Shown piece after piece: positions 33,136 to 35,791 of a stretch of DNA of 64,000 nt. Made by a program: the position numbers and the translations under genes. Under the pieces are notes generated by a model that was not told where the DNA came from, searched no databases, and worked only from the letters and a program-made list of their open reading frames with translations. This DNA comes from Streptomyces sp. NBC_00285 (GTDB taxonomy: Bacteria > Actinomycetota > Actinomycetes > Streptomycetales > Streptomycetaceae), in assembly GCF_036174265.1 (NCBI RefSeq), contig NZ_CP108055.1, positions 4,402,001 to 4,466,000 on the forward strand, read 5' to 3'. Position 1 is the first letter of the stretch; each line of letters starts with the position of its first letter.

Positions 33136-33762
33136 TCAGAGTGCCTTGAGTGCCTCCGTCGTTGCCCGGGCCAGCGCCGCGAGGTACCCCTTGGGCAGCT
33201 TCGGGCTGCGGATCACGACCGAGCGCCAGTAGAGCGGGCCCGAGATCAGATCCAGCGCCAGCTCGTCGTTGAAGCCCGCGCGGAGCTCACCGCGTCCCTC
33301 CGCCGCGACGACGATCTTGCTGGCGACGCCCTCCTGCCCCTTCTGTAACGCGTTCTGGAGGGCCTCGGCGATCTCGGGGTTGCGGGCCGCCTCGGCCTGC
33401 AGATCGGGGATGATCTGCGAGGCCACAGGGTGCCGCAGGGCCCGGGACGTCACCTCGTACAGCATCCGCAGGTCGTCCTCCAGGGAGCCGGTGTCCGGCA
33501 CGGGCAGGCCCATCACCGCGATCTCCGAGACGACGTCGAGGACCAGGTGCAGCTTGGAACGCCAGCGACGGTAGACAGCGGTCTTGCCGACGCCCGCGCG
33601 GCGCGCGATGCCCTCGATCGACATCCGCGCGTAGCCGACGGCCGCCAGCTCCTCGAAGACGGCCGCCCTGATGGCATCCGTCACGTCCTCGCGGAGTACG
33701 GCGGCTCCTGCCGGGGCACGGCGGCGCGGACGGGTCTGCGGCGCGTCGGCGTTGGTCGTCAT
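33136..33762 (-). CDS. TetR-family transcriptional regulator
   Basis: 208 residues. The N-terminal helix-turn-helix (about 28-75; FEELAAVGYARMSIEGIARR, AGVGKTAVYRRWRSK) is classical TetR, followed by an all-helical ligand-binding and dimerisation domain of the kind with ISGPLYWRSVV in its last third. The start is ATG at 33762 (MTTNADAPQ); the ATG at 33774 is also possible, and neither has a strong SD. The gene is divergent from a polymer-export ABC pair. The whole intergenic gap carries a striking array of repeated inverted-repeat sites that begins only 25 bases from this start. It very likely represses itself and the exporter; the ligand is unknown. Confidence 0.9.
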   Translation of the reverse strand: MTTNADAPQTRPRRRAPAGAAVLREDVTDAIRAAVFEELAAVGYARMSIEGIARRAGVGKTAVYRRWRSKLHLVLDVVSEIAVMGLPVPDTGSLEDDLRMLYEVTSRALRHPVASQIIPDLQAEAARNPEIAEALQNALQKGQEGVASKIVVAAEGRGELRAGFNDELALDLISGPLYWRSVVIRSPKLPKGYLAALARATTEALKAL

Positions 33763-33787
33763 GCGGACCAGCATAGGGCGTAGCGAC

Positions 33788-33953
33788 GAAACGGTCCCGT
33801 CCCGACGCGACTCGTTACGACGGGACGGTCTCGTTCCGGCGACGGCCGTGACGACGATACGGTTACGTTCCATCGTCATTCGTCGCGACGAAACGGTTGC
33901 GTTCCGACGCTCACTCGTCCTACGCTCACGATGCGACGATACGGTCCCGTCCC
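33788..33953. promoter_or_regulatory. Array of five 16-base imperfect inverted repeats, probable TetR operators
   Basis: Sites at 33788-33803, 33822-33837, 33856-33871, 33890-33905 and 33938-33953. Each fits GRWACG-GTYN-CGTYCC, a 6-4-6 imperfect inverted repeat, usually inside a larger CGAC...CG context. Start-to-start distances are 34, 34, 34 and 48. The array fills the gap between divergent tetR and the exporter genes, so binding would cover both promoters. A separate palindrome TTCGTCGCGACGAA overlaps the fourth copy at 33879-33892. Confidence 0.75.
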
Positions 33954-34056
33954 GACGTAAGAAAACGTGAAGAATCACGTAAGGAAACATCAGGTGACGG
34001 ACCGACCGCCCGCATGCGCCTCCCCTTCTCCCCCACCCCGAACGAAAGCAGCGGAT

Positions 34057-34974
34057 GTGAGCCAGGTCCTCGACACACCGCCCCCGACAGCACCCTCCGC
34101 CGGCGACGACCTCGCGGCCCTGGCCGTCCGTCACGGCCTGTCGGTCAGCGGTGCCCGTCCCTCCCTGCCCGAGTACGTCCGCCAGTTGTGGGCACGGCGT
34201 CACTTCATCACCGCGTTCGCCACCGCCAAGCTCACCGCGCAGTACGCCCAGGCGAAGCTGGGCCAGGTCTGGCAGGTCATGACCCCGCTGCTGAACGCGG
34301 CGGTGTACTACTTCATCTTCGGCGTGCTGCTGGGCACCAAGAGGAACGTGCCGGACTACGTCCCGTTCCTCGTGACGGGCGTGTTCATCTGGACGTTCAC
34401 GCAGAGCTCGATCATGGCGGGCACCCGCGCGATCGCCGGCAACCTCGGCCTCGTACGCGCCCTGCACTTCCCGCGGGCCGCGCTGCCGATCTCGTTCGCC
34501 CTCCAGCAGCTCCAGCAGCTGCTCTTCTCGATGGCCGCCCTGGTCGTCATCCTGCTCTGCTTCGGTGTGCCCATCGCCGCGTCCTGGCTGCTGGCGATCC
34601 CGGCGCTGGTACTGCAGTCCGTCTTCAACGCGGGCGTCTCGATGATCATGGCGCGGATGGGGGCGAAGACGCCGGACATCGCACAGTTGATGCCGTTCAT
34701 CCTGCGCACCTGGATGTACGTCTCCGGCGTGATGTGGAGCATCGACAAGCTGGCCAAGGGTCACCACAACTGGCCGCACTGGGTGGTCCCCGTCCTCCAG
34801 GCCAACCCGGCCGCCGTCTACATCGACCTGATGCGCTACTCGCTGATCGACAGCTTCCACGCGAGCCAACTGCCGCACCACGTGTGGCCGCTCGCGGTGG
34901 GCTGGGCGCTGGTCGCCGGCGTCGGCGGCTTCATCTACTTCTGGAAGGCTGAGGAGACGTACGGCCGTGGCTGA
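34057..34974 (+). CDS. ABC-2 polysaccharide/teichoic-acid exporter permease (TagG/Wzm-like)
   Basis: 305 residues. A cytoplasmic N-terminal segment (ARPSLPEYVRQLWARRHFI) leads to six TM helices of the ABC-2 type (about 95-300), with amphipathic QYAQAKLGQVWQVMTPLLNA before TM1. Such permeases flip lipid-linked polymers across the membrane. The start is assigned to GTG at 34057 (VSQVLDTPPP), which gives the usual spacing to the conserved SLPEYVRQLW; an upstream ATG at 33967 would add 30 Pro-rich residues. It overlaps the ATPase gene by eight bases. It is under the shared tetR operator array. Confidence 0.9.
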   Translation: MSQVLDTPPPTAPSAGDDLAALAVRHGLSVSGARPSLPEYVRQLWARRHFITAFATAKLTAQYAQAKLGQVWQVMTPLLNAAVYYFIFGVLLGTKRNVPDYVPFLVTGVFIWTFTQSSIMAGTRAIAGNLGLVRALHFPRAALPISFALQQLQQLLFSMAALVVILLCFGVPIAASWLLAIPALVLQSVFNAGVSMIMARMGAKTPDIAQLMPFILRTWMYVSGVMWSIDKLAKGHHNWPHWVVPVLQANPAAVYIDLMRYSLIDSFHASQLPHHVWPLAVGWALVAGVGGFIYFWKAEETYGRG

Positions 34975-35791
34975 CATCGCGAACGACCAGATCCCCACCG
35001 TCGTCGCCGACGGCGTCGACATCATCTACCGCATCAACGGCACCGGGGCCGGCAGGGGCTCCGCCACCGCCGCGCTGAACCGCATGATGCGGCGCGGCCA
35101 GGCCGAGAAGGCGGCGGGCGTCCGCACCGTGCACGCCGTCAAGAACGTCTCGTTCGTGGCGTACAAGGGCGAGGCCATCGGTCTGATCGGCACCAACGGA
35201 TCCGGCAAGTCGACCCTGCTCAAGGCGGTCGCGGGCCTCCTCCCGGTGGAGAACGGGCAGATCTACACGCACGGCCAGCCCTCCCTCCTCGGCGTGAACG
35301 CGGCTCTGATGAACGACCTGACCGGCGAGCGCAACGTCTACCTGGGCGGCCTCGCCATGGGCATGTCCCGCGAACAGGTCAGGGAGCGCTACGAGGAGAT
35401 CGTCGACTTCTCCGGCATCAACGAGAAGGGTGACTTCATCACCCTCCCGATGCGGACGTACTCCTCCGGCATGGCGGCCCGGCTGCGCTTCTCCATCGCC
35501 GCCGCCAAGGACCACGACGTTCTCCTCATCGACGAGGCCCTGGCCACCGGCGACCGCTCCTTCCAGAAGCGTTCCGAGGAACGCATCCGCGAACTGCGCA
35601 AGCACGCGGGCACCGTGTTCCTCGTCAGCCACAGCAACAAGTCCATCCGTGACACCTGCGACCGGGTGCTCTGGCTGGAGCGCGGCGTACTGCGCATGGA
35701 CGGCCCCACGGACGAGGTCCTGGCGGCCTACGAGGACTTCACGGGCGGCCCGGACAAGGCCAGGGCCAAGCAGCCCGCGGCAGCCGTCTGA
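34967..35791 (+). CDS. ABC exporter ATPase (TagH/Wzt-like)
   Basis: 274 residues. Walker A IGTNGSGKST, degenerate signature YSSGMAARLRFSIA, Walker B VLLIDEALATGD and switch His in VFLVSHSNKS match the polysaccharide/teichoic-acid export subfamily. The N-terminal stretch (DGVDIIYRI) is characteristic of TagH-like proteins. It lacks the C-terminal sugar-binding domain of Wzt. The start is GTG at 34967, overlapping the permease stop, so translation is coupled. It energises the permease encoded just upstream. A strong hairpin follows. Confidence 0.93.
   Translation: MADIANDQIPTVVADGVDIIYRINGTGAGRGSATAALNRMMRRGQAEKAAGVRTVHAVKNVSFVAYKGEAIGLIGTNGSGKSTLLKAVAGLLPVENGQIYTHGQPSLLGVNAALMNDLTGERNVYLGGLAMGMSREQVRERYEEIVDFSGINEKGDFITLPMRTYSSGMAARLRFSIAAAKDHDVLLIDEALATGDRSFQKRSEERIRELRKHAGTVFLVSHSNKSIRDTCDRVLWLERGVLRMDGPTDEVLAAYEDFTGGPDKARAKQPAAAV

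Follow-up and report, generated by a model that had tools for sequence, protein, structure and literature searches.

Conserved two-site core and variable further operator copies between a probable tagR gene and a tagGH-type exporter in Streptomyces

Divergent switches formed by a TetR-family repressor and a transporter, such as TetR-tetA, use two operators. Homotypic clusters of binding sites, in which individual copies turn over, have been studied mainly in animal enhancers. In Streptomyces roseosporus, the 206-residue TetR-type protein TagR is encoded divergently from tagGH (PMC10269677). In that study, TagR gave several bands with PtagR(tagG) in electrophoretic mobility shift assays (EMSAs), protected at least two sites there in footprinting and did not bind the other promoters tested. 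Loss of tagR increased tagG and tagH expression, with TagR acting as a repressor of this wall-teichoic-acid exporter, and a reporter suggested that TagR raises its own promoter; the gaps between tagR and tagGH in Streptomyces were given as 100-300 bp (PMC10269677). The sections of the report considered here describe at least two sites and one palindrome and mention neither arrays nor copy-number variation (PMC10269677). Our search of the open-licence literature found no tandem operator arrays of a TetR regulator.

The locus we analyzed shares features with each of these systems. As in TetR-tetA, two operators in a divergent promoter region would control both genes; unlike TetR-tetA, the regulator-proximal operator and the core have further copies, varying in number, between them. 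As in homotypic clusters, copies of a single site are gained and lost while regulation is maintained; unlike those clusters, the array belongs to a divergent promoter in bacteria, where the core is fixed and about 34 bases appear to form a duplication unit. The resemblance to TagR and PtagR(tagG) includes a TetR-type regulator of similar size (206 residues there, 208 here) and a divergent tagGH-type exporter, with at least two intergenic binding sites there and putative sites called from sequence here (PMC10269677).

Throughout, "the window" denotes the whole 64,000-nucleotide stretch of Streptomyces sp. NBC_00285 DNA that was analyzed. Its regulator matches the Pfam models TetR_N (42.3 bits, cut-off 24) and TetR_C_11 (85.1 bits, cut-off 32), and the gene diverges from a tagG-tagH-type exporter. 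When 25 of 105 first-look candidates were scored, it was the sole match at E <= 1e-20 in its own genome. From gene order, size and uniqueness, we consider this protein a probable ortholog of TagR. Both exporter subunits, an ABC-2 permease and an ABC ATPase, pass Pfam cut-offs. The NCBIfam galactan export permease model gives the permease 78.3 bits, under its cut-off of 380, and the best model for the ATPase likewise stays below its cut-off (Table 1); because of this, we take the teichoic-acid label from what is published on the probable ortholog. The GTG start of tagG in Table 1 was picked by eye from upstream sequence common to relatives; translation could also begin at an in-frame GTG at 33994. 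The genome contains another tagH-like sequence (G000:C1:8955820-8956590), which is 82% identical and has one TAG inside.

A first-pass annotation of the intergenic region had described five copies of a 16-base imperfect inverted repeat. All five are present, starting at 33788, 33822, 33856, 33890 and 33938, with steps of 34, 34, 34 and 48 bases. The consensus given for them, GRWACG-N4-CGTYCC, fits four of the five on the + strand; copy 2, GGGACGGTCTCGTTCC, has one mismatch there and is exact on the - strand. The repeats are thus confirmed; what is conserved, however, is a unit of 25 bases (RCGACGAWACGGTNNCGTYCCGACG), with the 16-mer as its middle. Five copies of this unit occupy 33783-33957 (Table 1).

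The bare 16-mer, at one mismatch or fewer, has 9 matches in the window against 5.07 expected, and 9 were reached in 8 of 100 shuffles. What exceeds chance is the clustering and the longer 25-base unit, whereas the 16-mer alone is a weak signal. A weight matrix of the 25-base unit, which was trained on the array sites and their orthologs and so tests uniqueness rather than function, scores the five copies at 22.8-42.0 bits. With this matrix, the highest score elsewhere in the 64-kb window is 5.4 bits; among 1,777,098 flank positions on both strands of 80 related loci, no score is above 8 bits. Across the whole genome, a 22-base pattern with up to two mismatches finds the five array copies and two single sites (C1:7631571 and C1:8527608). 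We rejected C1:7631571, the best single site away from the array, as a second genomic target; it sits within a long SMC-like coding frame and is taken as chance. With up to three mismatches there are 28 genome matches, six of them in the array, and since a reversed control pattern gives 19, the 22 matches outside the array are at about chance level.

Table 1. Coordinates in the window of the flanking genes, putative promoter boxes and operator copies
Feature	Position	Strand	Basis
tetR-type regulator, 208 aa, probable TagR ortholog	33136..33762	-	translation, Pfam domains
putative tetR -10 box, TATGCT in tetR orientation, 7 bases upstream of the start codon	33770..33775	-	AGCATA conservation
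operator copy 1 (P, tetR-proximal)	33783..33807	+	40.1 bits
operator copy 2 (interior, most diverged)	33817..33841	+	22.8 bits
operator copy 3 (interior)	33851..33875	+	32.9 bits
operator copy 4 (site A, conserved core)	33885..33909	+	42.0 bits
putative -35 box of the exporter promoter, TTGCGT, within site A	33897..33902	+	78/78 loci
putative exporter -10 box (TACGCT), 18 bases past the -35 box	33921..33926	+	TANNNT in 78/78 loci
operator copy 5 (site B, conserved core), over the expected transcription start	33933..33957	+	39.5 bits
tagG-like ABC-2 permease	34057..34974	+	Pfam ABC2_membrane, 50.8 bits
tagH-like ATPase	34967..35791	+	best NCBIfam model TagH, 180.1 bits, under cut-off 320

To follow the sites beyond the window, we used a sample of 30 Streptomyces genomes that were not chosen for arrays: the first 33 in the genome list following the window's own, with G011, G013 and G020 left out as already used. 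The TetR gene was found at E <= 1e-60 in 26 of the 30, and every one of these 26 TagR loci contains a two-site core. The last two sites lie 47-50 bases apart, and the first of the pair always carries TTGCGT, followed by TANNNT after 18 bases in 24 genomes and after 17 bases in two. Further sites above 8 bits are absent from 24 of the 26; the other two have a third site, clear and 270 bases away in one, weak (9.7 bits) in the other. By sequence, the shared promoter thus contains five putative binding sites in the window and the two-site core in all 26 of these genomes. The core is also present in four outgroup loci of the tree described below. Outside the genus, the site pair persists at TetR identities down to about 70%, but in two of 30 loci compared (L130 and L137) we found a single site.

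A closer set consisted of 80 Streptomyces loci, the nearest of 380 found, which with the window make 81 rows. Of these, 78 could be read through, the exceptions being L103, which runs off its contig, and L051 and L052, whose arrays extend beyond the 438 bases taken. The spacer from TTGCGT to TANNNT is 18 bases in all 78 loci. Site B starts 6 bases after the putative -10 box in 75 loci, and the step from A to B is 48 bases in 74. TTG occupies the center of every A site (78 of 78) and of no B site (0 of 78); among P sites 14 of 40 have it there, and among interior sites 8 of 61. Because of this distribution, we read the TTG in site A as belonging to a putative -35 box and not to the operator. 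As the core is built round the putative exporter promoter, the 48-base step would reflect promoter geometry. In L096, a local duplication shifts B to 61 bases, yet the TTGCG-18-TANNNT promoter is kept. On the other side of the region, AGCATA is found in 78 of 78 loci, and in 77 of them its distance to the first operator is 7 or 8 bases; the first operator itself lies 19-35 bases from the tetR start in 80 of 80 loci and 20 bases from it in the window. We infer the promoter boxes, including the -35 box that overlaps an operator, from this conservation; a strict consensus promoter scan called no sigma-70-like site in the region.

Downstream of the core, in the presumed tagG leader (33955-33990), the words ACGTAAGAAAAC and ACGTAAGGAAAC recur at 22 bases. 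AAGRRAACG-like words also follow site B in many relatives. These leader words are possibly a further regulatory element.

The number of tandem sites ranges from 2 to 9 across the 80 loci and the window and varies between close relatives. Two sites are present in 38 of the 81 rows, and 3 to 9 in the others apart from L103. A quick maximum-likelihood tree of tetR, tagG and tagH with 85 rows has 21 open forks; leaving out the three unreadable rows and counting changes without direction, it requires at least 30 changes of copy number and at least 13 between two sites and more than two. Steps of 34 bases make up 43 of the 101 steps other than A-B and occur in 19 of 40 multi-site loci; other steps include 33, 35, 36, 39, 40, 45 and 47 bases. 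Apart from the near-constant A-B step, copy number and spacing thus vary across Streptomyces. By the test that the first-pass annotation itself had set, many copies as part of a working design find no support: most genomes with the gene pair lack an expanded array, and 24 of 26 have exactly two sites. Five copies for one TetR-type protein are a lineage-specific expansion of a known two-operator switch.

The first-pass annotation had also remarked that the spacing is not a whole number of helical turns, which is correct: 34 bp correspond to 3.24 turns at 10.5 bp per turn. More generally, the 16 distinct steps up to 60 bp show no preferred phase (R 0.23, p ~0.44), and we rejected helical phasing as an explanation of the 34-bp spacing, which is better accounted for by a duplication unit than by geometry. 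Neighboring units are identical in L050 and a 93-base block is copied in L044, and from their sequences both look like recent duplications. One interior copy is inverted in the tagR region of L162 (genome G049), and a decayed inverted copy was seen by eye in L068, so not all copies come from simple head-to-tail duplication.

Taken together, we think it probable that this is a divergent TagR/tagGH control region whose two-site promoter core is old and working, while extra copies duplicate and decay. TagR bound at site A would hide the exporter -35 box, and TagR bound at site B would block the start. Since A contains the putative -35 box and B covers the expected start, a TagR dimer on either site would block RNA polymerase. 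Site P, just upstream of the putative tetR -10 box, may let TagR act on tetR's own promoter; in two-site genomes, site A would do both jobs, at the exporter and at the tetR promoter. Here, a unit of about 34 bases would have been duplicated in tandem, lengthening the P-A stretch. The interior copies would be extra, probably weaker sites of small effect, needed by neither promoter, that decay and are replaced.

An alternative is that the expanded array is itself selected. More copies could raise local TagR occupancy, titrate the protein or steepen the switch, with copy number tuning expression of the exporter and tetR to the habitat of the lineage. Between relatives of the same architecture, and in favor of the main reading, mismatches number 12/300 for P, 3/300 for A, 4/300 for B, 64/375 for interior sites, 43/276 for the A-B stretch and 127/465 for free linkers, in pairs that share branches and so are not independent (L085-L088 were skipped for unequal lengths and L046-L053 lay outside the comparison). 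Weighing against that reading, the A-B stretch differs about as much as the interior sites. In the window's own group, the interior sites differ less than the free linkers (64/300 vs 54/90), as selection on the array would predict. Of 23 consensus places, interior copies match 20.3, P 22.4 and A and B 22.8-22.9, in copies that were chosen by score, a procedure that favors conserved ones. When 34-step frames in the window's group are instead taken regardless of score, they keep 16-23 of 23 bases (random mean 7.1), which again favors selection, as does the occurrence of up to 9 copies. Judged from these sequence comparisons, constraint on the interior copies is intermediate, weaker than on the core and stronger than on free linkers.

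The interior copies do not all behave alike. In L049, L057 and L074, the sole interior site is unchanged in three pairs (0/75) while the linkers differ (67/360), so not every interior copy is free to drift; a fully conserved interior site in one clade speaks for some use. Titration, cooperativity or bending by extra copies may contribute. Elsewhere, the 34-step register is lost in L034, and some frames are at random level in L038, L061 and L068, in L038 and L061 decayed past recognition. Site number and steps also shift between close relatives, such as L030 with four sites and L034 with six, two sites suffice in 24 of the 26 sampled genomes with the gene, and the copies keep no helical phase. 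Weighing these observations, we regard selection for the expanded array as such as unlikely, though deserving of some weight, and favor a fixed promoter core to which copies are added and lost.

Operator-like sites also occur away from tagR in some relatives. Among 30 genomes chosen for this comparison, nine have such sites upstream of treY, which encodes maltooligosyltrehalose synthase, but five of these nine (G049, G097, G201, G242 and G252) were chosen after the second cluster had been seen. All nine have at least three sites at tagR; of the other 21 chosen genomes, about ten, the window's genome included, also have at least three tagR sites. The best sites upstream of treY score 15-41 bits per genome region, one being near-perfect at 41.5 (loci with treY-side arrays examined were L153, L154, L155, L156 and L140; the treY loci are L168-L179). 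In G252 and G097, an MFS frame located between treY and glgX contains the sites, and because their steps are 33 bases, these arrays keep the frame; G207 and G067 have the MFS gene without the operator-like sites. The treY region of the window's genome (L180) contains no operator-like array, and in 29 treY regions from genomes not chosen for it we found one site above 12 bits, which is weak and 719 bases away. The nearest sites lie at least 60 bases upstream of treY, outside a promoter-like stretch picked out by eye.

These sites may constitute a second TagR target specific to the lineage; alternatively, they may have been transferred without having a function. That the TagR arrays are an expanding element that founded a second array upstream of treY in the same Streptomyces group seems to us doubtful. 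If this were true, wall-teichoic-acid export and trehalose synthesis would be linked through a single osmotic-stress regulator. We rejected scattered sites in G036 and G048 as targets, as five of those that we fetched lie in or near unrelated genes; L158 proved to be G048's own TagR region, with diverged sites. In G036, three operator-like copies at 19-base steps lie between convergent genes (L142, 1532-1594).

A dispersed palindromic repeat element that has an operator-like sequence and multiplies for its own sake would also fit the arrays that nine genomes have between treY and glgX, two of which run at 33-base steps within an MFS coding frame. However, the window's genome has the repeats at one place only, close matches in 12 genomes cluster mainly at one or two places, and the core sites go together with the regulator gene and its promoter, making such an element very improbable as the source of the array.

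The tie between the repeats and the TetR gene, assumed when the array was first described, is borne out by several observations. All 26 sampled genomes with the gene carry sites beside it, and the four without it have 0, 0, 1 and 0 whole-genome pattern matches. Among the genomes left out of the sample, G011 has five clustered matches, G013 has two, and G020 has two clustered and one elsewhere. Across 34 homologs with 67-84% identity, mean identity is 93% in the TetR_N stretch vs 61% in residues 88-208. The tie is also backed by the EMSA and footprinting of the probable ortholog (PMC10269677). That the sites serve a different regulator and the adjoining TetR gene is a bystander would fit the motif's resemblance to other TetR-type operators, but the presence and absence of sites with the gene and the binding reported for the probable ortholog (PMC10269677) leave this extremely improbable.

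Our analysis separates a conserved promoter-switch design, in which operators are tied to a putative -35 box and start, from recent and fast-changing additions. It adds a defined operator sequence and a genus-wide distribution to the published work on TagR. The loci also form a natural series of 2 to 9 operator copies before the same genes, which lets the role of extra operators be tested directly.
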